DNA from: Accumulibacter sp.
GTDB taxonomy: Bacteria; Pseudomonadota; Gammaproteobacteria; Burkholderiales; Rhodocyclaceae
Assembly: GCA_031257115.1 (NCBI GenBank)
Contig: JAIRPF010000056.1
Coordinates: forward strand, 1-44,513
Length of the DNA: 44,513 nucleotides
Reading direction: 5' to 3'
The position numbers and the translations under genes were made by a program. Shown here one piece after another: positions 7,800 to 24,156 of this stretch; positions within the stretch are counted from its first letter, which is position 1; each line of letters starts with the position of its first letter. Below the pieces are notes generated by a model. The model was given only the letters and a program-made list of their open reading frames with translations. It was not told the origin of the DNA and did no database searches.

Positions 7800-9089
7800 A
7801 TGCCTTTGTCGCTATTGATCGTCATTTTCGGCATCGTATTGTTTATTGGCCTGCCGCTTGGTGTGGCGCTAACGGGCATTGCCATCCTTCCGGGACTATT
7901 TCAGCCTTCCTTTCCTTATACCGCTGAATCAGCGGTCAGAAGCTTGTCCGGAGGTATGGACAGTTTCCTCCTATTGGCCATTCCTCTGTTCATGTTTTCG
8001 GGCGTTATTATGGCCAAGGGAGGGATTTCAGAAAAATTGTTTGACCTGTTTGCCTATTTCTTTGGCAATCTGACCGCAGGTTTTCCCATGGCAGTCGTTA
8101 TAACCTGTTTGTTCTATGGCGCAATTTCCGGATCTGCACCAGCCACCACAGCTGCTGTTGGATCCATGAGTATCCCGTTCTTGGTCAAACGCGGTTATGA
8201 CCCGGTTTTTGCCTCGGCACTTGTCGCTGTATCGGGCGGATTGGGGGTAATCATCCCGCCAAGCATTCCCATGATCGCCTATAGTACTATCTCCAGCGTT
8301 TCCGTAGCCGACATGTTTATTGCCGGCATTCTGCCCGGTCTCCTGATTGCCGGTTGTTTAATGATATATGCTTTGTATTATTGCAAAAAGAAGGGCGAGG
8401 ACAAGGAAAAGTTGCATGCTTACTATATGCAAATTCATCGGCAGGGTTTTCTCATTCTCTTTAAGGGCAGCTTCTTTGCGTTGCTTACGCCAATCATCAT
8501 TCTGGGCAGCATTTACGGTGGAATAGCCACCCCCACAGAAGCAGCGTCACTTTCCGTATATTATGCCCTGATAGTCAGTCTGTTTGTTTATAAGACTATC
8601 AAGATTCGGGATATCCCCACAATTTTGTGCGAAACCGTCAAAACCTACGCGCCGATTCTTTTTGTCATTGCCTGCGCCGTGGTGCTCAGTCGCGTCATCA
8701 CGCTGCTCCAGATTTCACGCATGGTCGAGCAAGCCGTGCTTGCGAATGTTTCGTCGAAGGTTGTCATTTTACTGTTGATCAACATTATCTTACTGATTGC
8801 CGGGATGTTCATGGATGCCATTCCGGCCATGATGATTTTTACGCCGATCGTTCTGCCGTTGGTCAAAAACATTGGCATGTCGCCTGTTCATTTGGGTATC
8901 GTCATGATCGTCAACTTGGCCGTTGGTTTTGTGACGCCGCCTGTTGGCGTCAATTTATTCGTGGCTTCCAATATGACGGGAATTTCCGTTCTTTCGGTTG
9001 CAAAGGCTGCGCTGCCGTTCATCGCGGCTTTTCTGGTGGCACTGTTGTTGATAACTTTTATCCCGGCAATCAGCTTGAGTTTAATTTGA
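7800..9089 (+). CDS. dctM: TRAP transporter large permease DctM
   Basis: This is the twelve-helix channel subunit of a TRAP transporter, 429 residues, the normal family length. It shows the family's repeated elements: FMFSGVIMAKGGIS near 62-75, GAISGSAPATTAAVGS near 104-119, GGLGVIIPPSIPMI near 143-156 and the mirrored GFVTPPVGVNLFV near 380 in the second half. GGAGG nine bases upstream overlaps the end of dctQ, so the two are translated together. Together with DctQ it uses a sodium gradient to import the acid delivered by DctP. Confidence 0.96.
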   Translation: MPLSLLIVIFGIVLFIGLPLGVALTGIAILPGLFQPSFPYTAESAVRSLSGGMDSFLLLAIPLFMFSGVIMAKGGISEKLFDLFAYFFGNLTAGFPMAVVITCLFYGAISGSAPATTAAVGSMSIPFLVKRGYDPVFASALVAVSGGLGVIIPPSIPMIAYSTISSVSVADMFIAGILPGLLIAGCLMIYALYYCKKKGEDKEKLHAYYMQIHRQGFLILFKGSFFALLTPIIILGSIYGGIATPTEAASLSVYYALIVSLFVYKTIKIRDIPTILCETVKTYAPILFVIACAVVLSRVITLLQISRMVEQAVLANVSSKVVILLLINIILLIAGMFMDAIPAMMIFTPIVLPLVKNIGMSPVHLGIVMIVNLAVGFVTPPVGVNLFVASNMTGISVLSVAKAALPFIAAFLVALLLITFIPAISLSLI

Positions 9090-9104
9090 CAAAGGAGGAT
9101 ACAC

Positions 9105-10169
9105 ATGTTTAATAAGTATTTGCAGTCGGCATTATGTGGCCTGGTTTGTATACTGTTTACGTCCGTATCGGCCAGCGCCACGGAAGAACTTGTCAACCCA
9201 TCGACGATTCCGAGCAAATTTTCGCAAGATAAGGCGCAGTTCGTGCTCAACATCGCAACCCCCGTCGCCGAGGACAGTGTCAATCACTATATCGCCTATC
9301 GCGCGAAGCATTTATTTGAAGAAAGGAGCAATGGCCGTTTGTTTGCCAACGTCTATGAGGCTAGCTCTCTCGGCGGGGAGCGCGAAACTATCGAGGGAAT
9401 GCTGTCAGGTACAATAGATTTTTTTGTTACCATTTCAGCCGCATTTACGCCTTTTGCGCCGCGCACGGGCATCTTCGATTTGCCCAATGCCTATCCGAAT
9501 CTCGATGTGGCACGCAAAACCTTGGACAGCGACTTCTTGCAATTGCTGATACCCGATTACGAAGCCGCAGGTTTCAAGATGTTCGGTTTCTCCGATGCCG
9601 GTTTCCGGCAGGCTACATCGAACAGGCTGTTGAGAAAAATTGAAGACTTCAAGGGTCTGAAAATTCGTACCATGGAAAATCCGAACCATCTGGCTTACTG
9701 GAAAGCTCTTGGTGCCAACCCAACACCCATGGACTTCAGTGAAGTCTATATCAGCTTACAGCAGGGAACCATTGATGCGCAGGAAAACCCATATGATCTC
9801 ATCGTAGCTAATAAGCTGTATGAACCTCAGAAGTACATTACCGAAACTAATCACGTCATACATGGATTGACCATGATGATGAGCAAGCTCAAATATGACG
9901 CGATGCCCGACGATTTGAAGCAGATCGTAGAAAAAAGTGTCAAGGAAGCCTTAGCTTATGGTCGTCACGTCGCCGATGTTCGCATTGAAAGCCGCAAAAA
10001 GATCGTGACCGACTACGGCTGTGTTATTGAATTGGTCTCTCCGGAACTGCGTAAGCAGATGCTATCTAGGCTAGAAGATGTATATAGTCAGATGCGCAAA
10101 GCAACAGGCGACAAAATAATGGATACCTTCCTCAAACGCATTGCTGACATCGAAGCAGTATCAAAGTAG
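9105..10169 (+). CDS. dctP: TRAP transporter substrate-binding protein DctP
   Basis: This is the periplasmic solute receptor of the TRAP system, 354 residues with a Sec signal peptide (cleavage likely after SVSASA near residue 25). The family core is clear: the conserved arginine in LKIRTMENPNHLAYWKALG, which normally binds the substrate carboxylate, followed by NPTPMDFSEVYISLQQG and IDAQENP. AAAGGAGG lies six bases before the ATG. It is low in G+C like its neighbours. The binding protein follows the permeases here, unlike the common dctP-first order. The ligand is probably an organic acid, but is not identifiable. Confidence 0.95.
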   Translation: MFNKYLQSALCGLVCILFTSVSASATEELVNPSTIPSKFSQDKAQFVLNIATPVAEDSVNHYIAYRAKHLFEERSNGRLFANVYEASSLGGERETIEGMLSGTIDFFVTISAAFTPFAPRTGIFDLPNAYPNLDVARKTLDSDFLQLLIPDYEAAGFKMFGFSDAGFRQATSNRLLRKIEDFKGLKIRTMENPNHLAYWKALGANPTPMDFSEVYISLQQGTIDAQENPYDLIVANKLYEPQKYITETNHVIHGLTMMMSKLKYDAMPDDLKQIVEKSVKEALAYGRHVADVRIESRKKIVTDYGCVIELVSPELRKQMLSRLEDVYSQMRKATGDKIMDTFLKRIADIEAVSK

Positions 10170-10234
10170 CAGCCGGTATTTTGCCCCAGCCCTGGATCGA
10201 CATCTGGGGCTTCTGGACTACTGGAGTTTATGCC

Positions 10235-11585: not shown

Positions 11586-12665
11586 TCACCCGTAATTCGA
11601 GATTTCCGCGAATCCGTCGGCGGTTTTGCGGAACATTTCCACCAAGACGGGATCGAAGTGCTTTCCGCCTCCTTCGATGATGATGCGTTCCGCCTTTTCG
11701 CGGCTGAACGACGGTTTGTAGGATCGCCTGGAAATCAATGCGTCATATACGTCGGCAATGGCCATCAGGCGTCCTTCCAGGGGAATGTCCTCGCCGCTCA
11801 GGCCGACGGGGTAGCCCGTGCCGTCCCATCTTTCATGGTGAGTGGCCACGAAGGTCTTGGCGTGTTTCAAAAAGTCGTGCTCCGGCATGTTTTGCCCGAT
11901 TTTTTCGATGATGCTGATGCCGATGGTCACGTGCGTCTTCATGATCTCGAATTCTTCCGGCGTCAGCTTTCCGGGCTTGTTCAGGATGGCGTCGCCGATG
12001 GCGATCTTGCCGACGTCGTGCAATTGCGCCGACGGCAGCAGAAAATACAGATTCCAGTGAGCCATCTCGTTCCGGTAGATGTTCTCTTCGATCAGGGCGG
12101 CTATCAGCAGTTGCAGGTATCTCTGCGTGCGGGAGACGTGATTTCCCGTCATGGTGTCGCGGAATTCCACCAGTTCGGAAACGGTGCTCAATACCGCGCT
12201 TTGCAGGCTGAAAATGCTGTCGGTCTGCTTGCGCACCATTGCTTGCAGGTTCTCGTTATGGTTTTTCAGTTCCTTTTTCTGCGATATGGTCAGCAAATGG
12301 GTTTCGATGCGTCTCAACAGCAGCGGCGCGGAAAACGGCTTGTACACGTAATCGATGGCGCCCATGTTCAGGCCCTTCATCTCGCTGGCCTCGTTTTTTC
12401 TGCCGGTGAGAAAAATGACGGGGATGTCTTCCGTTCCCTCGGTCTCGGTCTTGATCTTGAGCCGCCGCAGGGTTTCGTAGCCATCCATTTCCGGCATGTC
12501 GATGTCCAGCAGGATCAAGTCCGGAATGACGCGCGACAGCATCTCGAACAGTTTTGCCGCCGAGGGCAGCGGATAGACTTTGTATTTGTCCTTGAGCATG
12601 TTCTTGCCCATGGACAGGATCGCCATGTTGTCGTCTACCAGCATGATCGTATGACGCGCTTGCAC
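11586..12665 (-). CDS. HD-GYP response regulator (cyclic-di-GMP phosphodiesterase)
   Basis: This is a two-domain regulator of 359 residues. The receiver (about 5-122) has the acidic pocket Asp11-Asp12, the phospho-acceptor Asp54 and Lys109. The HD-GYP domain (about 155-355) has His176, the His216-Asp217 pair (QLHDVGKI), His245, His276-His277 and GTGYP at 282-286, so the metal site appears intact and the enzyme should hydrolyse cyclic-di-GMP. The start is GTG with AAGGAGA seven bases upstream. It lies 22 bp after the hybrid kinase on the same strand and is its probable output partner. The 193 bp downstream, before the amidohydrolase end, have no gene. Confidence 0.94.
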   Translation of the reverse strand: MQARHTIMLVDDNMAILSMGKNMLKDKYKVYPLPSAAKLFEMLSRVIPDLILLDIDMPEMDGYETLRRLKIKTETEGTEDIPVIFLTGRKNEASEMKGLNMGAIDYVYKPFSAPLLLRRIETHLLTISQKKELKNHNENLQAMVRKQTDSIFSLQSAVLSTVSELVEFRDTMTGNHVSRTQRYLQLLIAALIEENIYRNEMAHWNLYFLLPSAQLHDVGKIAIGDAILNKPGKLTPEEFEIMKTHVTIGISIIEKIGQNMPEHDFLKHAKTFVATHHERWDGTGYPVGLSGEDIPLEGRLMAIADVYDALISRRSYKPSFSREKAERIIIEGGGKHFDPVLVEMFRKTADGFAEISNYG

Positions 12666-12687: not shown

Positions 12688-15600
12688 TCAGGGGGAATCG
12701 CGTTCCGCTTCGCGGGCCGCCAGCTTCTCGCCGATCAGCCGCAGTTCCATTTTGTCCGTCTGTTCCCGCAGCCACAGCACCAGATCCTGCCCCGATGCGT
12801 AGTGGAAGGCTTCCAGTTCTTCCAGGGCTTCGTCCACGCCATCCATGTCATAGCATTCGCAGGCGGCGCGCAGGCGTTCCAGCGCTTGCGGATCGGGCGC
12901 GTCCTTTTCCGGTTTGTCCGCGTCGAGACCGGCCAGCGCCTCGTTCAGCCGGGCGATCAGCCGCTCGGCGGACGCGATGAAGCTGGCATTGCGCGCCATG
13001 ACGGAAGCAAAATCGCCGGCCTTGGCGGCGTGTTCCAGTTCCTTGGCTTCGTCCCCGATCTGGTTGGCGCCGACGCTGTAGCTGCTGCCCTTGAGGCCGT
13101 GCACGACAATGGCATACCCCGCGAGTCCTTCCACGGAAACGCCTTTCGCCTGTTCCAGCAGGGCGGGCGTGTGTTTCGCATAGGAACGCAGCGCCTGGAG
13201 CAGCGCCTGGTCGTTGTCGCCGAAACGCGCCAGCGCCTGTTCCAGATCCAGGCCCTGTATCCGCCAGACGGGAAACGGCGGCGCGTCCCGGTCCGGGCCG
13301 TTCTCCGGCATCCGGCACAGCCATCGCCCGACGATCGCGTCCAGAAGGTGCATGTCGATGGGTTTGCCGAGAAAGCCCTGGAATCCTTCGTCGAGAAACA
13401 TCTTTTCGTTTCCGACGATGACGTTGGCGGTCAGCACGATGATGGGCACGGTTCGCGCGTAATCCGTGCCGATGGCGCGAATCCGTTTCATGGCCTCGGT
13501 GCCGTCCATGCCCGGCATCATGTGATCCATGAAAATCGCATCGTAGCGGACGCGCTCCGCGCGCACCGCCTCGACCGCCTGCTCGCCGCTGCCCAGGCAA
13601 TCCACTTTCATGCCATAAGGTTTCAGCATACCCTTGATTACGTCCAGATTCACCGGCACGTCATCCACCGCCAGGATGTGGGTGTCGTGCAGATTGGCGC
13701 ATTCCTTTCGGGCGTTTCGAATGACTCGGCAATCGACATAGCGGAAATCCCGCAACTGTTTCACTACTTCCGCGCCAATCGGCTTCACGCTGACGAAACC
13801 CTGGCGGATGCGGACGGTAAAGACCGAGCCTTTCCCGTACTCGCTTTCGACGCCAACCGTTCCGTCCATCAGGTCCACCAGCCTCTTGACCAGCGCCAGT
13901 CCCAATCCGGTTCCTTCGATGTTGCGGTTGGCCTTGCCATCCAACTGATTATAGCTGGTAAAAAGTTTTCCCGTATCTTCCGGGCGGATGCCGATTCCCG
14001 AATCGCGTATCGAGGAGCACAGCCAGACGTTTCTTCCTTCCCGTTCCCATGACAGCTTCCATTCAACGACGCCCTTCTGCGTGTATTTGAAGGCATTGGA
14101 CAAAAGGTTGTTGAATATCTGCTTGACGCGCAATTCGTCGCCGTACAGCGTTCTCGGCAGCGTCTCGTCCAGCACCAGACTGAAGTGGATGTCCTTGTCG
14201 CCCTTGCGCGTGATGTTCATGCTGGCGATGTCGCTGATCTGGGACGGCGTTTCGTATTCGGAGGGAAACAGCTCGAATTTCCCAGACTCGATCTTGGAGA
14301 TGTCCAGGATGTCGTTGACTATCGAGAGCATGACGTGGCCGGCTCTGTGAATGTTTTCCAGAGACCGGCTGTTTCTTTCGTCCTGATCCTTTTCGTTGAG
14401 CATCAATTCGGAAATGCCGATGATGGCATTGAGCGGGGTGCGGATTTCATGGCTCATCGTGGCCAGGAAACGCCCCTTGGCTTCCGAGGCGGCCTCGGTG
14501 GCCTTGACCTGTTCCGCCAGCTCGCGGGTTCGTTCCGCCACATCGGCTTTCAGGCGAACCCCCTCGCGGTGCCGCTGCATCAGCAGCATCGCCAGGAGCA
14601 GGATGAACAGCGACATGAAAACGCAGGTGCTGATGAGGAAAACGATCTGCGTCCTCGACGCCTCGCGCCGGAAGTCGAAAACGGAATATTCCCAGCGGCG
14701 GACGATGCTTTGCGTGTCGACCAGCGCCTGGGCCTTGCTGATGATGCCGCGCAGTTCCTTTTGTTCCTTATTGAAACCGAATCCGGTGGAGAGAGGGTCC
14801 TCGAAAACCAGATTGATTTTGAAGTTCGTCTTTTTCAGGTAATTGGTAATGTAGGAGAAATGAAACTGGCTGAGCATCATGAGATCGATTTCGCCCGTTT
14901 CGAGGGCGTTGAATTCATTGAGCTGGCTGTCGAATTGCTTCGTGCTCGCGTGACTGGGAAACCATTGCTGAAAGACGTGGGTATAGGCGGTATCCTGCAA
15001 CAGGCCGATCCGGTGGAAAAGCACTTCGTTGTGACGGAGATTTCTAAGGCTGTTCAGTGAAATGAGGGCGTAATAATCTTTCAGATAAGGTTGATCCGCC
15101 AGCAAAAATTCGCGCCGCCGGTATTCGTTGTAGGACATGTCCAGCACCATCGGCGCGTCGGGATCGCCGCTTCTCAGCATTCTCAGCAAAAGCGGCCAGT
15201 TGTCCTTGTCGAACACGACGGGCTTGAAGGAAAGCCCCGTGATCGAGCTGATCTCGGCCAGGATGTCGAAAGCGACGCCGCTCCAGTGATTTTCCTTTTC
15301 ATTGTAAAACTCGATGGGATAATTGGTCGGACTGGCGCCGACGGGAATGGGAAGACCGGCGCGGATGTGTTCTTCGTAATAGTCGCGCTCGGCTTCGTTC
15401 AGATTGTCCACGAAGGTCTTGCGATAAAATCGGGTTATCCCTTCGCGGTACAGGTTGTGGAGATAGCTCAGCGTCTCGTTGGAAAAACTTTTGTTGATCG
15501 CGGCGATCAGCGGGGCGAGTTCCAGGTTGCCGGTCGTCACGGATATGCGCTGGTACAGCAGGGGCAGGAAGGTGCTGACGGCGATGTCCTTCTGATCGTG

Positions 15601-16302
15601 GAATATTTCGAGCCAGGCGTCGTTGCCGACGAACAGGTCGGCTTCTTTCCGGCGGAGCCGGCCGGCGGCTTCGTCGACGCTGTCGAGTTCGACGATGCTC
15701 AGCGTCTTGCCGTATTTTTCCTCCAGATGCGGAATGACCAGGGCCTTGTCGCCCGAATCGCGCAGAAAAGCGATGTTGAGCGGGCGTTCCCTGACAATCT
15801 CGTCGAGCGAGGGGCCGAAGGCGCGGGTGGCGATCTTGACGGGCCGTTCCCTGGCGGGCCGGGTCATGCTGAATCCCCGCGGGCGAGCGCCGGGCGGAGT
15901 GAAATCGCTGGTGAAATCGATCTCGCCGCTCTTTATGCCCTTGACCAGATCGTTCCAGGAATAGATTTTCACCTGAAAGGGAACGCCAAAGAAATCGCTC
16001 AGCCATTTGGCGATCAGCGTCGCGTAACCATCCACCGAGCCGTCGTCCTGATAGAAACACTCGGAGCTTTTCATCATGCCGTAGGTAAACGAAGTCCGCC
16101 CCGCGATCGCCTGGTTTACGGCCTGTATTTCCGCCTCCGTGATATTGGGAATGGCGCGGAAGGAGATGGGAGCGTATGCCCCGGAGGCGTCGTCCGGTCT
16201 TGTTCCCTCGATGCCGTTTCGCGTCCAGACGAAACCGAGGATGCCGCCTAGCACGGCGGCCAGCAACGAGACCATCAGGTATATCCGTATCTTCGCCGGC
16301 AT
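12688..16302 (-). CDS. BvgS-like hybrid sensor histidine kinase with two periplasmic binding domains
   Basis: This is a membrane sensor of 1204 residues. Order of parts: signal anchor (about 8-26), two periplasmic solute-binding (SBP_bac_3-like) modules (about 55-290 and 315-545), a membrane helix (about 552-576), a short coiled linker, HisKA with His618 in SHEIRTPL, an ATPase domain (N-box NNLLSNAFKYT, DSGIGI, GTGLGLAL), a receiver with Asp926 and Lys980, and a C-terminal HPt domain with His1068 (VHGLKGSS). This is the phosphorelay layout of BvgS and EvgS. The ATG at 16302 has AAAGG upstream; a TTG seven codons earlier is less likely. The HPt probably passes phosphate to the adjacent HD-GYP regulator. 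Confidence 0.95.
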   Translation of the reverse strand: MPAKIRIYLMVSLLAAVLGGILGFVWTRNGIEGTRPDDASGAYAPISFRAIPNITEAEIQAVNQAIAGRTSFTYGMMKSSECFYQDDGSVDGYATLIAKWLSDFFGVPFQVKIYSWNDLVKGIKSGEIDFTSDFTPPGARPRGFSMTRPARERPVKIATRAFGPSLDEIVRERPLNIAFLRDSGDKALVIPHLEEKYGKTLSIVELDSVDEAAGRLRRKEADLFVGNDAWLEIFHDQKDIAVSTFLPLLYQRISVTTGNLELAPLIAAINKSFSNETLSYLHNLYREGITRFYRKTFVDNLNEAERDYYEEHIRAGLPIPVGASPTNYPIEFYNEKENHWSGVAFDILAEISSITGLSFKPVVFDKDNWPLLLRMLRSGDPDAPMVLDMSYNEYRRREFLLADQPYLKDYYALISLNSLRNLRHNEVLFHRIGLLQDTAYTHVFQQWFPSHASTKQFDSQLNEFNALETGEIDLMMLSQFHFSYITNYLKKTNFKINLVFEDPLSTGFGFNKEQKELRGIISKAQALVDTQSIVRRWEYSVFDFRREASRTQIVFLISTCVFMSLFILLLAMLLMQRHREGVRLKADVAERTRELAEQVKATEAASEAKGRFLATMSHEIRTPLNAIIGISELMLNEKDQDERNSRSLENIHRAGHVMLSIVNDILDISKIESGKFELFPSEYETPSQISDIASMNITRKGDKDIHFSLVLDETLPRTLYGDELRVKQIFNNLLSNAFKYTQKGVVEWKLSWEREGRNVWLCSSIRDSGIGIRPEDTGKLFTSYNQLDGKANRNIEGTGLGLALVKRLVDLMDGTVGVESEYGKGSVFTVRIRQGFVSVKPIGAEVVKQLRDFRYVDCRVIRNARKECANLHDTHILAVDDVPVNLDVIKGMLKPYGMKVDCLGSGEQAVEAVRAERVRYDAIFMDHMMPGMDGTEAMKRIRAIGTDYARTVPIIVLTANVIVGNEKMFLDEGFQGFLGKPIDMHLLDAIVGRWLCRMPENGPDRDAPPFPVWRIQGLDLEQALARFGDNDQALLQALRSYAKHTPALLEQAKGVSVEGLAGYAIVVHGLKGSSYSVGANQIGDEAKELEHAAKAGDFASVMARNASFIASAERLIARLNEALAGLDADKPEKDAPDPQALERLRAACECYDMDGVDEALEELEAFHYASGQDLVLWLREQTDKMELRLIGEKLAAREAERDSP

Positions 16303-16349
16303 GAACCGCCTTTCTTCAAACAAGCCCGGCCGTCGACCGGCCGGAAGAC

Positions 16350-16518: not shown

Positions 16519-16554
16519 CAAAAATCCCCCGAGGCCGGAAGGCCATCGGGGGAT
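16519..16554 (-). terminator. Rho-independent terminator of the kor-nfn operon
   Basis: Read on the minus strand, ATCCCCCGA pairs with TCGGGGGAT, with GGCC/GGCC pairing inside, followed by a run of five T. It lies 35 bp beyond the stop codon of the 733-residue protein and marks the end of the operon. Confidence 0.85.
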
Positions 16555-16589: not shown

Positions 16590-18791
16590 TCAAGCGAACG
16601 CCTCCGCCCGCTTCATCAGCTCGTCCAGGCCAGGCTCGCTCGCGTTGCGCGGCTTCCCCGGATGGATGATCGCTACCTGGCAGTTCTCGGCGGCTTCGAC
16701 GAGCTGCGCATACGTGCCGGCCCCGGCGTCCTTGACGTAAGCCTGTTTGTTGTCGTTGTAGGCGAATATCTTGGCGCTGATCTGGATACATTCGTTGCAC
16801 GAGGCGCAGCGCGGCGTCTCGATGTACGCTTCGTCCGTGGACGTTTCGGGTTCCTTTTCCGGGAAGGCCGCGTCGGCGGTGGGCGCGGAATCGGGAGCCG
16901 GCGGCGTGACCGCGGGATCGGGAATCGGCGGCGTGGCCGCCGTGGCGATGGCCGCGCCGCTCGCTTCCCAGGCCGCCTTTTCCCTGGCCAGCAGTTTTTC
17001 GGCGTGTGAATTGTGAATGCCGCCGAGTTCCTGCAAGCTGTGCCACATCGACAGGCAGCGGCGCGCCTCGCGGACGATCTTTTCGACGACGATGACCTTT
17101 TGCAGCCGGTTGTCCGGGGCGACCATCAATAGAGAAGGAACACTGTCGATGCAGTGGATGTCGCCGCGCTCGACGTTGTCGATGACGCCGCTGGCCTCGG
17201 CCAGCCCGTTTTGCCAGTGCGGCTTGGCGACGGCGGCGAAGAACTTGCCGTAGCGGGCGTCGCAGGCGACGAAGTCGATCAGGGTGAAGGGATGATCCTC
17301 GACGACGCTCTGGCAATTTTCGTCCTGATAGGCCACGCAATGGATCGGCCAGTCAAGATCGGCCTGCGGATTGGCCGCCAGCGAGAAGCGGGAAGCCCAG
17401 TCGTTGCCGGCGGTCGGATCCATGGTGAAAACCGGGAAGACGCGCGATTCGAGCGCCGCGGCGCCGATCAGGTAGGGAGGCAACTGGCCCTTGCCCTTGA
17501 CGACGCCGGAGAAGATGGAGAACAGCGCGGGGCCGGAGCAATCGAGGCCGCGCACGATCTTCTCGCGCACCCGGTACAGCGCGGAAGCCGGCGCCTGCAC
17601 GACGAACACGCCGACCATGCCCAGCGCCATGCGGGCAAGCTGCCGGTTGCGCAGGGCGAAAGCCAGGTGGCCGTTGCCGATCGGCGATTCCTCGATGATG
17701 TCGTCGGACTGCACGAGCACCTTGATCGGCAGGTTGAGCGACATGATTTCGGTCAGCGCGCCAAGCTCGCCGCCCGGCAACTGATGCGCGTGGACGCGCG
17801 CCAGATAGTCGGGAAAGATGGCCATTTCGCGTGGGTCGAGACCGTTCTCGCCAAAGGATTCGAAAAGGCGGTCGTGTTTCGCCTCGCTGTACTCGCCCCG
17901 CACCTCAAGCTCGCCGATGGCCACGGCCTTGGCCAGCTCGATGGCCTTGGGCAGGCGTTCGCGGTAAGCCCTGATGGCGTCACCGCAGGAATCGAAGGCG
18001 AAACTGTAGGGTTGGCTGGTGGAATGCGACGAGGGGTAGAACTGCTGCGTCTTGAGCGTCGCCAGCAGCCATTCGATCCGTTTCCTGCGGCTTTTGCCCA
18101 GGTTTTCCTTCGGAACGGACCGGCTCAGCAGTTTCGACATCGCGTCGAAATCGAACTTGTCCAGCGGCCCCGAACCAAAGGTTTGCCGGAGATTGTCCGC
18201 GCTGCGCCCGGCGTTCGAATTGGCGAAATCCGCCCGCAGGATGTCGGACAGCTTGACGATCAGGCGATCGGCGATTTCGCCGAAGCGCCGCGCGCGGCTC
18301 GCCTGGGTCAGCGTCCAGGCGTGCCCGATCAGTTGGCAAGGCATGGCGCCGTCGCAATCGACGACGTCGCCGTCCACCTTGAGATTGGCGCGCGCCTGGG
18401 CGAGGCTCTCGGCGATCGCCTTGTCGCTCTTGCCGAGATCCCTGGCGGCCTTGTCCCACAGGGCGGAGAGTTTCCCGCCCTTGCCGGCGGCCGCCTGGGC
18501 GCGGATGTGCCGTTCGAGGCGCAGGAGATGCTTCCTGATCCGGCCGGCGTCGTCGCCGTGGGCGATTTTATCGAGGATGCCGTCGATCAGGCCGGAAAGC
18601 GATTCGATGCAGGCGCCGCCCGCCGGCTCCGCGACCAGTACCAGGGGAAAGTCGTAGCGCAGCCGGGTCAGATCCCGATAACTGGCGAAAAGGGCCGGGC
18701 GCAGGTTGAGTCGGTCGATGACTTCCAGGTTGGGCGTGTTTGCCTTTCCGGACAGAAAAAATGCCACGTTGGCTTGCAGATCGGCTTCCAT
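16590..18791 (-). CDS. Large protein of unknown function with C-terminal [4Fe-4S] ferredoxin domain, in the kor-nfn operon
   Basis: I do not recognise this 733-residue protein as a known enzyme. The last 80 residues form a single-cluster ferredoxin-like domain: Cys662, Cys665, Cys668 and Cys704, the last in ENCQVAIIHPG, where the usual Pro after Cys is Gln. A Pro/Ala-rich linker (about 605-645) joins it to a roughly 600-residue soluble body. Within the body, the stretch around NRQLARMALGMVGVFVVQ, GPALFSIFSG and SRVFPVFTMDP is faintly reminiscent of the C-terminal thiamine domain of NifJ-type pyruvate:ferredoxin oxidoreductases, but I see no thiamine-binding GDG...N motif. It lies 77 bp after korB and ends at a terminator, so a redox role with KorAB/NfnAB is inferred. 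Confidence 0.85.
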   Translation of the reverse strand: MEADLQANVAFFLSGKANTPNLEVIDRLNLRPALFASYRDLTRLRYDFPLVLVAEPAGGACIESLSGLIDGILDKIAHGDDAGRIRKHLLRLERHIRAQAAAGKGGKLSALWDKAARDLGKSDKAIAESLAQARANLKVDGDVVDCDGAMPCQLIGHAWTLTQASRARRFGEIADRLIVKLSDILRADFANSNAGRSADNLRQTFGSGPLDKFDFDAMSKLLSRSVPKENLGKSRRKRIEWLLATLKTQQFYPSSHSTSQPYSFAFDSCGDAIRAYRERLPKAIELAKAVAIGELEVRGEYSEAKHDRLFESFGENGLDPREMAIFPDYLARVHAHQLPGGELGALTEIMSLNLPIKVLVQSDDIIEESPIGNGHLAFALRNRQLARMALGMVGVFVVQAPASALYRVREKIVRGLDCSGPALFSIFSGVVKGKGQLPPYLIGAAALESRVFPVFTMDPTAGNDWASRFSLAANPQADLDWPIHCVAYQDENCQSVVEDHPFTLIDFVACDARYGKFFAAVAKPHWQNGLAEASGVIDNVERGDIHCIDSVPSLLMVAPDNRLQKVIVVEKIVREARRCLSMWHSLQELGGIHNSHAEKLLAREKAAWEASGAAIATAATPPIPDPAVTPPAPDSAPTADAAFPEKEPETSTDEAYIETPRCASCNECIQISAKIFAYNDNKQAYVKDAGAGTYAQLVEAAENCQVAIIHPGKPRNASEPGLDELMKRAEAFA

Positions 18792-18868
18792 AAAGGGCTA
18801 TCCCGTCGAGTTGTTGGTGGATGCCGTCCCCGCTGCGGCGAGCGGGGACGGCCGTATCGTTTCCTTGT

Positions 18869-19822
18869 TCAGACCGAGTATTTGTCGAGTTCGGCCTCGA
18901 AGTTTTTCCTGATGGCCTCCGCCGTGCGCAGGGCGCCGCCGTGCCGCGTGTCCTCGTAGCACGGAACGTCCGGATTCCGGTAAAGGATGCCGACCGGGAT
19001 GACGTCCGTGCCGGAGGCGATTTCGCGCGCCCGGTGGATGTCCAGCGGGTCGTGCTCGATCTGGTTCTTGTATACGCGGGCGAGGCTCTGGCCGATCTGG
19101 ATGCCGTTGGCGTGATGCACGAGCTGTACGCGGGCCGGGTCTTGCAGCCACGGTTCGAGGGCCTTGGGCAGCCATTCCGGGCAGCGCTGGATGACGCGGA
19201 CGAAGGAAAATCCCTTGTGATGGTAGGCGGCCTTGACGATGTCGAACAGCGTTTCCGGAATCCAGTCGACCGCCTGCGCGATGAACGAGACGTTGGAGAC
19301 GCCGAGCGACACGGTCAGGGGGTTCAACGCCTGGAGGTAGCTGCCGCGCGGCGTGGTGTTGCTTTTGGTGCCGAACGGCGAGGTGGGCGAGGCTTGTTTC
19401 TTGGTCAGGCCGTAAATCTGGTTGTCGTGCAGAAAGACGGTCATGTCCATGTTGTAGCGCAGGGCGTGGATCCAATGCGCCGCGCCGATGCTGCAACAGT
19501 CGCCGTCGCCGGTGTTGACGAACACGGCGAGATCGGGGCGCGTCATCCTGACGCCCTCGGCGATCGGAAAGGCGCGGCCGTGGATGCCGTGAAAACCGTA
19601 GGTCTTCATGTAGTGCGGAAAACGGCTGGAGCAGCCGATGCCGGAGACGAACACGGTTTTTTCCGGGCGCAACCCCTCGTCGCGGCACAGGCGCTGGACG
19701 GCGGCGAGGATGGCGTTGTCGCCACAGCCGGTACACCAGCGTGGAACGCCGCTCTGATAGTCTTCCAGCGCCGACTGCTCCCTGTACAGATCGAGCAGTT
19801 GCTTGATGGCGGATAGTTTCAT
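18869..19822 (-). CDS. korB: 2-oxoacid:ferredoxin oxidoreductase beta subunit
   Basis: This is the thiamine-diphosphate subunit of a 2-oxoacid (probably 2-oxoglutarate):ferredoxin oxidoreductase, 317 residues. The thiamine/Mg motif is GDGD at 105-108 with Asn134 in DNQIYGLTKKQ, the OFOR-beta signature. Cys30, Cys33 (WCTGCGD), Cys64 and a Cys near 219 (IQRCPEW) should hold the [4Fe-4S] cluster. The start has GGGGA five bases upstream, nine bases after korA. With KorA it converts a 2-oxoacid and CoA to acyl-CoA, CO2 and reduced ferredoxin. The 2-oxoglutarate preference is inferred from the KorAB subunit layout. Confidence 0.93.
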   Translation of the reverse strand: MKLSAIKQLLDLYREQSALEDYQSGVPRWCTGCGDNAILAAVQRLCRDEGLRPEKTVFVSGIGCSSRFPHYMKTYGFHGIHGRAFPIAEGVRMTRPDLAVFVNTGDGDCCSIGAAHWIHALRYNMDMTVFLHDNQIYGLTKKQASPTSPFGTKSNTTPRGSYLQALNPLTVSLGVSNVSFIAQAVDWIPETLFDIVKAAYHHKGFSFVRVIQRCPEWLPKALEPWLQDPARVQLVHHANGIQIGQSLARVYKNQIEHDPLDIHRAREIASGTDVIPVGILYRNPDVPCYEDTRHGGALRTAEAIRKNFEAELDKYSV

Positions 19823-19831
19823 GCTTTTCCC

Positions 19832-21718
19832 CTATTTTTCGAGTTTGGCCAGCAGGACCTTGCGGATGGTGCCCGGCTTGACCGGTTGGCCGCGCACTTC
19901 CGTCCAGCAATCGACGTCGACCAGATAGCGCGCGCGCAGCAGCGTGGCGAGCGCGGAATAACGGCGGTTGTCCGCGTCGATCAGCTCGTCGTCCGGGTTG
20001 TCGCTCCAGTTGGTTTCGACGGTCATCACCTTCTTGAACCGCCGCATGATCTCCTTGATGCCGGGCTGCATCGGCTGGAGGAAGCGCAGATGCGTCGAGG
20101 AGATTTTCTTGCCCTCGGCGCGCAGTTCGGCGACGGCCTCTTCGATCGCGCCCTTGGTGCTGCCCCAGCCGATGACCAGCAGGTCGCCCTCCTCGTCGCC
20201 GAACACGTCCGGCGGCAGCAGGGTTTTTTGCAGGGCGGCGATTTTCAGGCTGCGCGCGCGCAAGCCTTCCTGGTTGATGTCCGGGTCGTAGGCGACATGG
20301 CTGTCGCGGTCGTGGGCCAGCCCCGTGACCGTGTGCATGCCGCCCGGCTGGCCGGGAATGAAGCGGCGCGCGACGCCGGTGACTGGGTCCCAGTCGTAGG
20401 GCCGCGCGCCTTCCGGCACCGGGCTTTGGTCGATCGGCGGCGCGAGCCACGATTCCTGGAAGCGCGGCCGGTCGAACGGCTGCTGCGAGGACGACAGGCT
20501 GGCGTCGCTCAGGATGACGACGACGGTGTTGAAAGTCTCGGCGATGCGCCGCGCGGTAATCACCGAGTAGAAGCAATCCTCGATCGTCGACGGCGCCATC
20601 ACGACCTTGGGCGCGTCGCCGTGGCTGCCGAAGATGGCGGTCAGCATGTCGCCCTGTTCGACCTTGGTCGGCTGGCCGGTGCTCGGGCCGCCGCGCTGGA
20701 CGTTGACCACGACGAGCGGAATCTCCGCCATCACGGCGAGGCCGATGCCTTCCTGCTTGAGCGAATAGCCGGGGCCGGAGGTGATGGTCACGGCGCATTT
20801 GCCGGCGTAGGACGAGCCGATGGCGAAGGCGCAGGCGGCGATTTCGTCCTCGGCCTGGTGCACGATGCCGCCGACCTTCTCGAAGGCTTCCGACAGATAG
20901 TGCGAGGCCGAGGTCGCCGGGGTGATCGGGTACATCGCGCAGATGTCCATGCCCGAGGCCATCACGCCCAGCGCCAGCGAGACGTTGCCGTTGATCGAGA
21001 TCTGCGGCCGGTTGTGCGGCGTGGCCGGGATGCTGAAGGAAAAGTCGATGTTGGCCTTGGCCCACTTGTAGCCGGCTTCGAGCAGCGCCACGTTGGCGTC
21101 GATGACGCTCCGTTCCTTCTTGCCGAAAGTCAGCGCGATCTGCTCGCGCCCGGCTTGCAGGTCGAAGTTGTAGATGCGGCAGAGGATGCCCAGCGCGAAC
21201 ATGTTCTTGCCGCGCCGCGCGTTGGGCGTGAGCTTGAGGCATTCCTCCTCCATCGGGATTTCGTAGACCTTGAAATCCGCCTTGACCAGCCGGTCGTAAG
21301 CCTCGATGTACGACTTGACGACGTTCGGGTCGGAATGAGTGCGCCACATGTTTTCCAGCAGGATGATGCAGCCCGGCTTGAGTTCGCGGGCGTTGACCCG
21401 GCCGAGCAGCACCTGCTCGTTGAAGGCCACGACCAGGTCGGTCTCGTTGCCGCCGTTGGTGACGTAGCCGGAGCCGATGCGGATGCGGTTGCCGGAAGCG
21501 CCGGCCACGCTGCGGGCCGGCGGGCGGATTTCCGCCGGAATGATCTCGGTCGTCCAGACGCCGTTGCCCATGCGGGCGGCGATCGATCCGAGCGACTGGC
21601 CGCAGCGCTGCGCGCCCTCGCCGGAATCGCTGATGATCTCGACGATGTGCTCCTTGAGCGTCACGCACGTTTTTTCCTGCGCCCTGGCGCTGGCTTTCCT
21701 GGTTGCTGTCGTTGTCAT
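19832..21718 (-). CDS. korA: 2-oxoacid:ferredoxin oxidoreductase, fused gamma-alpha subunit
   Basis: This subunit of 628 residues fuses the gamma domain (about 20-210, beginning at SDSGEGAQRCGQSLG) to the alpha domain (about 240-600) with the YPITP substrate motif at 263-267, EDEIAA and TSGPGYSLKQEG. This is the layout of KorA in 2-oxoglutarate:ferredoxin oxidoreductases of betaproteobacteria such as Thauera. The ATG at 21718 is chosen because a longer frame would overlap the upstream nfnB-like gene by 68 bp and add a composition unlike the family. Partner of KorB just downstream. Confidence 0.93.
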   Translation of the reverse strand: MTTTATRKASARAQEKTCVTLKEHIVEIISDSGEGAQRCGQSLGSIAARMGNGVWTTEIIPAEIRPPARSVAGASGNRIRIGSGYVTNGGNETDLVVAFNEQVLLGRVNARELKPGCIILLENMWRTHSDPNVVKSYIEAYDRLVKADFKVYEIPMEEECLKLTPNARRGKNMFALGILCRIYNFDLQAGREQIALTFGKKERSVIDANVALLEAGYKWAKANIDFSFSIPATPHNRPQISINGNVSLALGVMASGMDICAMYPITPATSASHYLSEAFEKVGGIVHQAEDEIAACAFAIGSSYAGKCAVTITSGPGYSLKQEGIGLAVMAEIPLVVVNVQRGGPSTGQPTKVEQGDMLTAIFGSHGDAPKVVMAPSTIEDCFYSVITARRIAETFNTVVVILSDASLSSSQQPFDRPRFQESWLAPPIDQSPVPEGARPYDWDPVTGVARRFIPGQPGGMHTVTGLAHDRDSHVAYDPDINQEGLRARSLKIAALQKTLLPPDVFGDEEGDLLVIGWGSTKGAIEEAVAELRAEGKKISSTHLRFLQPMQPGIKEIMRRFKKVMTVETNWSDNPDDELIDADNRRYSALATLLRARYLVDVDCWTEVRGQPVKPGTIRKVLLAKLEK

Positions 21719-21746
21719 GGGGGACTGTTCCAAAATCGCGGTTGAT

Positions 21747-23237
21747 CTAAACCCGGATGCGGACGAAATTGCGTTCGCTCGCGTCGATGCCGAACACGGT
21801 ATCCTCGCCGGCATCGTAGGGGCGGTCGCCGTCGCGGATGCCGAGATAGGCTTTCATGCCGGCGGCGGCCTGCCGTCCGGCGCCCATGGCCTTGATCACG
21901 GTGGCGGCGCCGGTGACGATGTCGCCGCCCGCGAAAACGCCGGCCATCGAGGTGGCCAGGCGTTCGTCGGTATCGATGTATCCCCGTTTGTTCAGGCGCA
22001 GCCGGGAGGTCTGGCCCATGATCGGGTTGGCGTTGGTGCCGATGGCGTAGACCACCAGGTCGCATTCGAAGTCGAATTCGCTGCCGGCGACGGGCGCGGG
22101 GCGGCGGCGGCCGGAACCGTCGGGTTCGCCAAGCTCCATGCGCACGCAGCGCAGGCCCTTGACGTTGCCGCTGCCGTCGTCGAGGACGGCCACCGGATGG
22201 GTCAGCCAGTGGAATTCGACGCCTTCCTCCTCGGCGTGGTGGATTTCCTCGGCGCGCGCCGGAGCTTCCTTGCGCGAGCGGCGGTAGATGCAGTAGACCT
22301 TTTCCGCGCCGAGGCGCAGCGAGACGCGCATCGCGTCCATCGCGGTGTTGCCCGCGCCGACGACCGCGACGCGCCTGCCGATCGGCTGCGGCGTGTCGAA
22401 ATCCGGAAAATCCCTGCCGCGCATCAGGTTGCAGCGCGTGAGCAATTCGTTCGCGGAAAGCACGCCGTTCGCCGAATCGCCCGGAATGCCCAGCATCGTC
22501 GGATACCCCGCGCCGACGCCGACGAATACCGCGTCGAAGCCCATTTCGCCGATCATCTGTTCGAGCGTGAACAGCCGGCCGACCAGCGTGTTGCATTCGA
22601 ACCTGACGCCAAGTTTCTTCAGGTTGGCGATTTCCGCGTCGACCACCGGATTGGGCAGGCGGAAGTCGGGAATGCCGTATTTCAGCACGCCGCCGGCCTG
22701 GTGGAAGGCTTCGTAGACCGTGACCTCGCAGCCGGCCTTGGCCATGTCGGCGGCGCAGGCCATCCCGGCCGGCCCGGAACCGACGATGCCAACCTTGAAG
22801 CCGTTCGGCTCGATATGGGGAACATTGGCCCAGCCTTGCTGGATCGCCGCGTCACCGACGAAACGCTCCAGCCGGCCGATGGCCACCGGCTCCAGCGTCT
22901 GGCCGACGGTGCACCGGCCCTCGCACTGGTTTTCCTGCGGGCAGACGCGGCCGCAGATGGCCGGCAGCAGGCTGGTCCGGGTCAGGATGTCGTAAGCGCC
23001 GCGCAAATCCCTTTCGTTGACCCCGCGGATGAATCCGGGAATGTCGATGCCGACCGGGCAGCCCGACACGCAGGGCTGATCGGGGCAGAGCAGGCAACGC
23101 TCGGATTCGCGCAGCGCGTCGTCCAGGCGATAGCCGCTGGCCACTTCCTCGAAATTCTTCGCGCGCGCGGTCGGGGCCTGTTCGGGCATGGGCGTGCGCT
23201 CCTGCGGGATGCTTCGTATCGTTCTTTTCTTCGCCAT
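21747..23237 (-). CDS. NfnB-like NADPH/ferredoxin oxidoreductase large subunit (GltD family)
   Basis: This flavoprotein of 496 residues is of the glutamate-synthase-small-subunit family and resembles NfnB. Two N-terminal cysteine groups (Cys48, 51, 56, 60 and Cys95, 99, 105, 109) fit two [4Fe-4S] clusters; GSGPAG at 153-158 binds FAD; a second Rossmann motif, VVGAGNTAMDA, followed by YRRSRKEAPAR, fits NADPH. No glutamate synthase large subunit is nearby, while an NfnA-like gene precedes it, so an Nfn-type transhydrogenase is more likely than GOGAT. The ATG at 23237 lacks a ribosome site; the Met at residue 17 (23189) has AGGAG nine bases upstream and is a real alternative. Confidence 0.9.
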   Translation of the reverse strand: MAKKRTIRSIPQERTPMPEQAPTARAKNFEEVASGYRLDDALRESERCLLCPDQPCVSGCPVGIDIPGFIRGVNERDLRGAYDILTRTSLLPAICGRVCPQENQCEGRCTVGQTLEPVAIGRLERFVGDAAIQQGWANVPHIEPNGFKVGIVGSGPAGMACAADMAKAGCEVTVYEAFHQAGGVLKYGIPDFRLPNPVVDAEIANLKKLGVRFECNTLVGRLFTLEQMIGEMGFDAVFVGVGAGYPTMLGIPGDSANGVLSANELLTRCNLMRGRDFPDFDTPQPIGRRVAVVGAGNTAMDAMRVSLRLGAEKVYCIYRRSRKEAPARAEEIHHAEEEGVEFHWLTHPVAVLDDGSGNVKGLRCVRMELGEPDGSGRRRPAPVAGSEFDFECDLVVYAIGTNANPIMGQTSRLRLNKRGYIDTDERLATSMAGVFAGGDIVTGAATVIKAMGAGRQAAAGMKAYLGIRDGDRPYDAGEDTVFGIDASERNFVRIRV

Positions 23238-23271: not shown

Positions 23272-24156
23272 CTATTTTCCGGCGGCCGCGCCGACCGCCC
23301 TGTCGATCGACTTCTGCATCCGGCAGCCTTTTTCCCAATGTTCGAGCGCCATGCGCTCTTCCCTGGAATGACGGCGCAGGCGCATCGTCAGGTCGTCGAA
23401 ATCGACCCGATGGCCGTCGAAGTCCGGCCCGTCGACGCAGGCGAACTTGACCTCGTCGCCCACTTTCACGCGGCAGCCGCCGCACATCCCGGTGCCGTCG
23501 ACCATGATCGGATTCAGGCTGACCATGGTCTTGATCTTGTACGGACGGGTCGTGTCGGCGCAGCTCTTCATCATAATGGGCGGGCCGATGGCGATGACCT
23601 CGTCGACGTCGGAATGTTTCTTGAGCGCCGCTTCGATGCCGGCCGTCACCCGCCCGTGCAGTCCGACCGAGCCGTCGTCGCTGCAAATGATGAATTCGTC
23701 GCAGATCGCGCGGAACTTGTCTTCCCAGAACACCAGATCCTTGCCGCGGAAACCGATCACGCCGATGACGTAGGCGCCGCCTTCCTTGAGCGCCTTGGCC
23801 TGCGGATAAACCGGGGCGACGCCCAGACCGCCCCCGACGCAGATCACCTTTCTGGCGTGCGAAGGCGGCGTGGGAATGCCCATCGGCCCGACCAGACCGT
23901 ACAGGAACGCGCCGGCCTGGCATTCCCGTTGCATTTGCCGGGTGGTCTTGCCCACGGCCTGGATGACCAGGGTGACGGTTCCCTTTTCCCGGTCGAAATC
24001 GGCAATGGTCAGGGGAACCCGCTCGCCGTGCTCGCTCAGCATCACGATCACGAATTGCCCCGGCCTGGCCGCTCTGGCCATCATCGGGTGGCGGATTTCC
24101 AGCAGATAGGTGACGTCGGAAAAATCCTCGCGTTTCACGATTTCATAATTTGACAT
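23272..24156 (-). CDS. NfnA-like ferredoxin-NAD(P)H reductase subunit
   Basis: This flavoprotein of 294 residues is of the ferredoxin-NADP reductase/dihydroorotate-dehydrogenase electron-transfer type. RVPLTIAD (46-53) fits the FAD site and VGGGLGVAP (107-115) the nucleotide site. Asp220, Cys225, Cys228 and Cys240 near the C-terminus match the unusual Asp plus three Cys ligation of the [2Fe-2S] cluster described for NfnA. It opens the minus-strand operon and lies 34 bp before the NfnB-like gene. Together they should exchange electrons between NADH, NADPH and ferredoxin. AAGGTG precedes the ATG. Confidence 0.91.
   Translation of the reverse strand: MSNYEIVKREDFSDVTYLLEIRHPMMARAARPGQFVIVMLSEHGERVPLTIADFDREKGTVTLVIQAVGKTTRQMQRECQAGAFLYGLVGPMGIPTPPSHARKVICVGGGLGVAPVYPQAKALKEGGAYVIGVIGFRGKDLVFWEDKFRAICDEFIICSDDGSVGLHGRVTAGIEAALKKHSDVDEVIAIGPPIMMKSCADTTRPYKIKTMVSLNPIMVDGTGMCGGCRVKVGDEVKFACVDGPDFDGHRVDFDDLTMRLRRHSREERMALEHWEKGCRMQKSIDRAVGAAAGK

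Follow-up and report, generated by a model that had tools for sequence, protein, structure and literature searches.

Enzymes of the pyruvate:ferredoxin oxidoreductase (PFOR) and wider 2-oxoacid:ferredoxin oxidoreductase (OFOR) families bind thiamine and Mg through a GDG...SNTGG motif, and in the 2-oxoglutarate:NADP oxidoreductase KorABC of Azoarcus evansii the KorC component is itself a flavoprotein. Domain V is absent from two-subunit OFORs, whose single cluster sits beside a large pocket that might accommodate a ferredoxin (excerpts of PMC5020499). Here we describe F733, a 733-residue protein encoded beside a two-subunit KorAB and an NfnAB pair on contig JAIRPF010000056.1 of Accumulibacter sp. 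(assembly GCA_031257115.1; the whole stretch analysed, 44,513 nucleotides, is called the window below). With moderate confidence, we read F733 as a dead relative of the C-terminal half of giant PFOR-like proteins that has turned into an accessory electron-transfer subunit of KorAB, and we infer its docking and the electron flow through it from sequence comparison. The analysis directly shows the homology, the lost thiamine and internal cluster ligands, the kept tethered ferredoxin, a ratio of nonsynonymous to synonymous substitutions (dN/dS) well below 1 and the linkage to korAB and nfnAB.

A conserved ferredoxin tethered to F733

The open reading frame (ORF) and its parts are as follows.
16590–18791, minus strand: F733, 733 aa from an ATG start, a putative pseudo-PFOR (C-terminal half) with a C-terminal tethered ferredoxin.
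18012–18791, minus strand: residues 1–260, matching the giant-protein stretch with the two-cluster ferredoxin domain (hhalign probability 97.0, E = 1.2e-10, collinear).
16962–18011, minus strand: residues 261–610, a degenerate counterpart of the thiamine region (domain VI-like) and of the C-terminal extension that follows in the giant PFORs (hhalign probability 100, E = 6.5e-45).
16836–16979, minus strand: Pro/Ala-rich linker, residues 605–652.
16593–16826, minus strand: single [4Fe-4S] ferredoxin domain, residues 656–733 (C662, C665, C668 and C704).

A scan of 84,980 species genomes confirmed 230 stretches related to F733, of which the best 80 were kept as full or partial loci; the most divergent relatives are not among these 80, and giant PFORs may be among the other 150. 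From these we built an alignment of 55 rows (the window plus 54 of the 80 loci, hand-picked for spread), omitting 26 loci that were near-duplicates, incomplete matches, the interrupted locus L102 or others. The four cluster cysteines are invariant in all 55 rows and in 20 of 20 aligned homologues of another set, and 26 of the 55 residues in stretch 601–655 are Pro or Ala, so that the coordinates, cysteines and linker proposed in a first-pass annotation, made from the sequence alone, all held. The tail is the most conserved part of the protein (mean column identity 0.82, against 0.61–0.69 for the body) and the linker the least (0.46). Three lone cysteines of the body are also conserved: C146 (54/55), C269 (49/55) and C579 (51/55).

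Fer4_13 was the single Pfam family above its cut-off in F733 (residues 661–710, E = 2.8e-6, 28.3 bits against a cut-off of 24.5), with Fer4_15 falling below cut-off at the same place (E = 0.24). NCBIfam gave no match to F733 at E = 1, and the body matched no model of either collection. A search of the PDB with the sequence returned one significant match, ferredoxin I (1dax, E = 5e-5); the MARTX cysteine protease domains (E = 0.16–0.27) and nisin immunity protein (E = 2) that also appeared were dismissed as chance-level. By its four ligands and family score the tail is a single-cluster ferredoxin of the Fer4_13 type, and its family suggests a low-potential [4Fe-4S] cluster. A ferredoxin:NAD(P) reductase was discarded as an assignment, as Pfam at E = 1 gave no flavin or nucleotide-binding family. 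A residual cluster on C146, C269 and C579 is not supported, these being three scattered cysteines of which only one sits at a PFOR ligand position.

One homologue (G311; L131:9137–12067, plus strand), in an intact nfnAB-korAB operon, carries three successive C-terminal ferredoxin repeats, of which Pfam counts two; such a protein fits a tail that carries current. Each of the 80 loci holds one F733 ORF except L102, where the homologue of a metagenome bin (7932–10208, plus strand) is split by one in-frame stop into 219 and 539 aa.

Homology of the body to giant PFOR-like proteins

Among 99 related genomes, 37 gave matches to F733 and 20 carried full-length orthologues; 18 of these belong to the window's genus, represented by 28 genomes, and two lie outside it. 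Most of the remaining matches sit near the ends of ORFs of ~1600–1940 codons, the better ones covering F733 residues 266–732. All four giant ORFs tested are PFOR-like, with POR_N, POR, PFOR_II, two-cluster ferredoxin and thiamine domains; they score 387–420 bits against the TIGR02176 cut-off of 911 (L031 420, L032 396). Their tails match Fer4_13 above cut-off (L031, L032), Fer4_15 (L038) or a ferredoxin family weakly (L039). The giant ORFs collected (L031–L035, L038, L039 and L145) span about 1650–1939 codons, most with a C-terminal ferredoxin. A further giant tail, cut by its contig end (L037:1–3543, plus strand), contains a partial duplication of the ferredoxin domain, possibly an artefact of assembly.

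A profile of 55 F733 homologues aligned by hhalign to a profile of eight giant C-terminal halves over 714 columns (probability 100, E = 1e-76), and F733 is collinear over its full length with the C-terminal half of these ~1650-aa ferredoxin-tailed proteins. Separate pieces of F733 also aligned in order: residues 1–135 (E = 6e-10), 261–360 (E = 7e-15), 440–610 (E = 7e-31) and the tail 646–733 (E = 2e-25), the weakest being 136–265 (E = 2e-5, probability 77.8). Five column shuffles and one reversal all gave E = 0.3 or worse. The E. coli PFOR YdbK was matched in the right place at an hhalign probability of 3.9, too weak by itself, so that the giant family was needed to reveal the homology. On these alignments F733 is homologous to the PFOR/OFOR catalytic beta domain (domain VI). 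Its profile did not match KorB, and a recent duplication of KorB was rejected as its origin because that comparison came back empty.

Loss of catalytic and cluster residues

The residues that would make F733 an enzyme are largely gone. Across 67 F-type rows, the four proximal-cluster cysteines are present in 0, 66, 0 and 0 rows, the second being C146, and seven of the eight cysteine positions of the two-cluster domain are kept in 0 of 67 and one in 1 of 67, six of the positions being deleted. In residues 1–260 of F733 itself the eight cluster cysteines are missing, most of the two-cluster domain is deleted and Cys146 stands as a remnant of the proximal-cluster motif; in residues 261–610 neither GDG nor SNTGG was found. 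The thiamine residues are as depleted across the 67 rows (SNTGG Asn in 0, Thr in 1 and Gly in 0; GDG Asp in 2), whereas they are kept in the giants (9/9 and 4/4) and YdbK (1/1). All proximal, two-cluster and thiamine residues are present in YdbK and in those giant rows that have letters there; among the nine rows of gA, the giants with the same tail as F733, two are gapped over the domain V columns and one at the first two proximal columns. Some motif columns of the F rows fall in gappy stretches, where loss of the motif is surer than the exact letter.

F733 thus lacks the thiamine motif, three of the four proximal cysteines and the two cluster motifs of domain V. The idea of a decayed NifJ-type thiamine domain without a working thiamine motif was therefore sound on both counts, and the profile search of the body found PFOR-like proteins and no unrelated enzyme. 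The companion idea of a new oxidoreductase using its own ferredoxin finds no support, since the thiamine motif and internal cluster ligands are missing. The gene immediately upstream offers a comparison.
18869–19822, minus strand: KorB, thiamine-binding beta subunit (236 bits, below the TIGR02177 cut-off of 262).

The KorB GDGDC motif and its cysteines C29, C32, C63 and C213 (start Met uncounted), which are of cluster type, are invariant in 10 of 10 aligned sequences, and KorB is predicted to be the live counterpart of the dead F733 domain. Because catalytic and internal cluster residues are lost, the tail cysteines are invariant and KorB next door is live, F733 has the look of a pseudoenzyme whose tethered ferredoxin still works.

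We also weighed whether F733 is an assembly, stability or oxygen-protection subunit, whose pseudo-beta body caps the exposed cluster of KorB while the tail only docks or senses. Its three conserved lone cysteines suit such a scaffold, and in Desulfovibrio africanus PFOR an extra C-terminal domain lies over the proximal cluster and makes the enzyme unusually stable to oxygen (excerpts of PMC5020499). A pure cap, however, needs no cluster, and here the tail is the best-conserved part (0.82), has its ligands in 55 of 55 rows and is triplicated in one homologue; we regard this alternative as unlikely.

Constraint and co-variation

F733 is no chance frame, because 20 of the 99 related genomes carry stop-free full-length copies and its pairwise dN/dS is 0.28 (against G011) and 0.26 (against G023). 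For the same two comparisons the neighbours gave 0.09 and 0.08 (KorB), 0.18 and 0.16 (NfnB), 0.18 and 0.14 (NfnA) and 0.15 and 0.12 (KorA). Frequent frameshifts were looked for in the 20 genomes with full-length F733 and none was seen. These values indicate that F733 is under constraint and is not decaying in the genus. That it is nonetheless a decaying gene, left over from a lost PFOR and riding passively in the operon, might be argued from the lost catalytic motifs, the in-frame stop in L102 and the split frames of one related locus (G132, below); set against 20 of 20 full-length genomes free of stops, relatives down to 43% identity, dN/dS of 0.26–0.28 and invariant ferredoxin ligands, we consider it extremely improbable.

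Across 56 loci, distances of the F733 body co-vary with those of KorA after removal of NfnA and NfnB (partial r = 0.56), close to the KorA–KorB yardstick of 0.54. We take this as a weak signal, suggestive only, of an F733–KorAB association.

Linkage to korAB and nfnAB

Upstream of korB, on the same strand, lie three further genes.
19832–21814, minus strand: KorA, fused gamma-alpha subunit (TIGR03710 above cut-off).
21747–23237, minus strand: NfnB, the large Nfn subunit (NADH-dependent ferredoxin:NADP oxidoreductase; nearest solved structures are chains 4ylf_B, E = 4e-171, and 5jca_L, E = 7e-146).
23272–24156, minus strand: NfnA, the small Nfn subunit (nearest solved structure is chain 5jca_S, E = 5e-94, which is NfnI subunit beta).

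Since NfnB ends at 21747, an ATG near 21718 is the likelier start of KorA. Both Nfn subunits match solved Nfn chains over nearly their full length; 5jca_L is NfnI subunit alpha, and 4ylf_B is presumably from Thermotoga maritima NfnAB. Flavin-based electron bifurcation by NfnAB would be expected from its family. Family and solved-chain matches thus bore out the naming of all four upstream genes in the first-pass annotation.

The arrangement recurs. Among the best 80 of the 230 relatives, every locus with enough upstream DNA has same-strand upstream KorB (68/68), KorA (61/61), NfnB (58/58) and NfnA (53/53). These relatives reach down to 43% identity and, by record title, belong to several classes: Betaproteobacteria predominate, and there are some Gamma- and Alphaproteobacteria, Acidobacteria and one Pyrinomonadaceae, although titles of metagenome bins can err. 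One locus, L058, is titled Propionivibrio soli SG131, a cultured carrier. Co-occurrence with korAB and nfnAB therefore held, and neither of the two outcomes named beforehand as grounds for abandoning the idea, a match to an unrelated enzyme or absence from beside kor and nfn genes, was seen.

Linkage extends to whole genomes. In the 99 relatives, a KorB scoring at least 469 bits occurs in 20 of 20 F733-positive genomes and 0 of 79 negative ones, the next KorB-like score being 208. Among 369 sampled genomes from the class, KorB reaches 345 bits in 12 (next score 220; scan limited to E = 1e-60), and all 12 carry F733 or a sister family, E. Thirteen genomes of this sample carry F733 (2) or E (11), and G440 alone lacks a KorB, its E lying on a 6-kb contig. 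In the genome samples searched, this KorB clade occurs only with F733 or E, and F733 shows the genetic linkage and co-occurrence of a KorAB subunit. Among 72,556 plasmid records, two match F733, covering 64% and 40% of the query, with no annotated feature under either match.

A sister system with a second pseudoenzyme

E was found in 11 genomes of the class sample, and ten of its proteins (811–869 aa) have the architecture of F733. In all ten neighbourhoods (16.6–19 kb) the order is korA-korB-E, followed by a frame of 1143–1603 aa, which we call D.
L132–L134 and L136–L142: korA-korB-E-D loci (genomes G429, G433, G200, G265, G447, G316, G132, G317, G196 and G417).

D is a second PFOR pseudoenzyme. 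Both of its two-cluster motifs are intact in 10 of 10 rows, while the four proximal cysteines and the Asn and Gly of SNTGG are present in none and the Thr in one; no ferredoxin tail was detected in D. The frame is shorter in L134, L140 and L142, and N-terminal stops are present in G200 and G317. D occurs, by score or position, in the same 11 genomes as E; hits of the D search in other genomes (scan limited to E = 1e-30) were classed as ordinary giants, fragments or split relatives by their 27–40% identity and frame length and not individually. Downstream of F733, a giant-PFOR-like hit turned up at only one of the 80 loci, L111; it is a POR_N protein of 516 aa and not D, and many loci are short on that side.

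In a tree of 54 rows, made by a quick method without bootstrap and with support values from the Shimodaira–Hasegawa-like approximate likelihood-ratio test (SH-aLRT), F733 and E together make up a single clade (99), which groups with the same-tailed giants (95), their nearest group, and D forms its own clade (90). D_L132, E_L132 and YdbK have long branches, and E is not one clade, E_L132 (from a locus with D) being the sister of the F733 rows. A simple history, resting on one quick tree, would make korAB-E-D the older arrangement, in which the F733 lineage swapped D for nfnAB.

The sister loci bear on a further alternative, in which F733 is a ferredoxin dedicated to KorAB only, adjacency to nfnAB reflects shared regulation, and the tail reduces NfnAB, free ferredoxins and others alike. 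A KorAB-E core without nearby nfnAB in 10 of 10 neighbourhoods speaks for it, but nfnAB is present in 53 of 53 testable F733 loci, and the confinement of D to the same 11 genomes as E looks like a tight swap of partners; we think it decidedly unlikely.

Proposed role of F733

We return to F733 as an accessory electron-transfer subunit of KorAB. Its body would dock on KorAB, perhaps touching KorA, and would compensate for the absence of an intramolecular ferredoxin domain from two-subunit OFORs. The linker would let the single-cluster ferredoxin move between the only [4Fe-4S] cluster of KorB and NfnAB, so that electrons from oxidation of a 2-oxoacid (probably 2-oxoglutarate) could reach NAD(P) through a private carrier, bypassing the free ferredoxin pool; alternatively, the flow may be reversed for reductive carboxylation. 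By Nfn chemistry, 2-oxoglutarate oxidation could yield NADPH with NADH as co-substrate, or the reverse.

Several observations weigh against this picture. F733 evolves faster than its neighbours (dN/dS 0.26–0.28 against 0.08–0.18), which fits a scaffold but also a loosely constrained part. Co-variation of the body with NfnB, after removal of KorA and KorB, is lower (partial r = 0.33), that of the tail is slight throughout (KorA 0.30, KorB 0.10, NfnB 0.23, NfnA 0.03), and all co-variation within one operon is confounded by shared ancestry. No relative of NfnA or NfnB was detected in any of the ten E neighbourhoods of 16.6–19 kb, so this type of protein is not definable as a general Kor–Nfn bridge. 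In G132, a one-contig genome, E falls into two frames (body, 755 aa; ferredoxin, 98 aa) and KorA into three (L139:11649–17042, minus strand), through sequence errors or decay. D keeps the GDG Asp in 6 of 10 rows, a less complete loss than in F733. Finally, only its family points to 2-oxoglutarate as the probable substrate of KorAB, and KorB stays under the TIGR02177 cut-off. The first-pass proposal of a docking or electron-exchange subunit holding KorAB and NfnAB together hence survives as the best reading of the homology, linkage, tethered ferredoxin and weak co-variation, with the amendment that nfnAB is not the sole partner, as the ten sister loci attest.

A bolder extension, which we offer tentatively and ourselves doubt, is a new class of pseudoenzymes that wire electrons: giant PFORs, copied and then dead, would serve KorAB as modules, F733 and E as a swinging ferredoxin and D as a wire with two clusters, while NfnAB and D would be interchangeable outlets. 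The five-protein version with NfnAB might then act as one 2-oxoglutarate:NAD(P) oxidoreductase that couples NADH and NADPH (con- or bifurcating) without releasing ferredoxin, and might replace 2-oxoglutarate dehydrogenase in the window's organism.

If the carrier is private, 2-oxoacid oxidation that depends on ferredoxin could be linked to NAD(P) with no free ferredoxin pool in between. This might explain how the cycle closes in genomes without 2-oxoglutarate dehydrogenase, and F733 would offer a natural model for attaching ferredoxins to oxidoreductases by a tether. An enzyme fold would have been reused as a wire, apparently twice (F733/E and D), around one enzyme.

Genomic context and 2-oxoglutarate physiology

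Around F733 the window holds further features.
18823–18852, minus strand: 12-bp GC-rich hairpin in the 77-bp gap between korB and F733.
12688–16323, minus strand: hybrid sensor kinase with SBP_bac_3 sensor domains, directly downstream of F733.
11586–12665, minus strand: response regulator, identified by eye.

The hairpin could possibly control stoichiometry; the same gap in 13 relatives measures 12–164 bp, with differing folds. Terminator-like sites lie 3' of F733 at 16541–16526 and 16345–16325, and the next same-strand ORF, the sensor kinase, begins at 16323. As a scan of the window returned 12 terminator-like sites against 8.0 ± 3.4 in shuffled sequence, the description of F733 as the last gene before a terminator is not established. 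A promoter scan found none, with 1.2 expected.

The E1 component of 2-oxoglutarate dehydrogenase (TIGR00239, E = 0.001) finds no match in the window's genome, which is rated 100% complete, and the best SucB match there scores 319 bits, below the cut-off of 379. By the same E1 threshold, 7 of 18 F733-positive genomes of the genus lack E1 against 1 of 10 negative ones, and among genomes at least 90% complete the figures are 4 of 12 against 0 of 6. SucB is above cut-off in none of the seven E1-lacking F733-positive genomes and in all five E1-positive genomes examined alongside. A general association of the operon with loss of the dehydrogenase was nevertheless set aside, the trend having the right direction but being weak.

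The same genome holds a second, divergent 2-oxoacid oxidoreductase operon (L151:6541–11311, minus strand; frames of 499, 629 and 619 aa) encoding an NfnB-like flavoprotein with KorA-like and KorB-like proteins, perhaps of the Azoarcus KorABC type. We therefore do not claim KorAB-F733-NfnAB as the sole 2-oxoglutarate route. At seven loci (L072, L074, L085, L087, L088, L094 and L112) this second operon lies within 3 kb of F733, its NfnB-like part being unseen in L074.

Comparison with known systems

No paper describing an F733-type protein was found, by title or start of abstract, in the open-access library searched, where absence is not absence from print. The closest known proteins are the gA giants (L031–L035 and L145), which share the linker and ferredoxin tail of F733 and are collinear with it throughout; they still have alpha and gamma parts, a two-cluster domain, a proximal cluster and a thiamine motif, none of which F733 has. 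PFOR/NifJ of the D. africanus type, represented by E. coli YdbK, has the domain VI-like core in common with F733 but retains the thiamine and cluster residues that F733 lost, and no ferredoxin tail aligned in YdbK. Azoarcus evansii KorABC likewise wires a Kor enzyme to a pyridine-nucleotide flavoprotein, a role that NfnAB and a dead PFOR with a tethered ferredoxin would fill here. In Rhodopseudomonas palustris the fused Nfn protein AadN is an Nfn-type enzyme in an anaerobic electron chain, strains having either AadN or KorAB, and the available excerpts of that account mention no F733-type protein (PMC9973337). The KorA and KorB of the window resemble two-subunit OFORs such as Sulfolobus StOFOR and Mycobacterium KorAB. 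The ferredoxin of StOFOR is a free one, a distance of about 14 Å having been modelled for the Sulfolobus enzyme and its ferredoxin, and the excerpts of its description are silent on any pseudo-PFOR subunit (PMC5020499).

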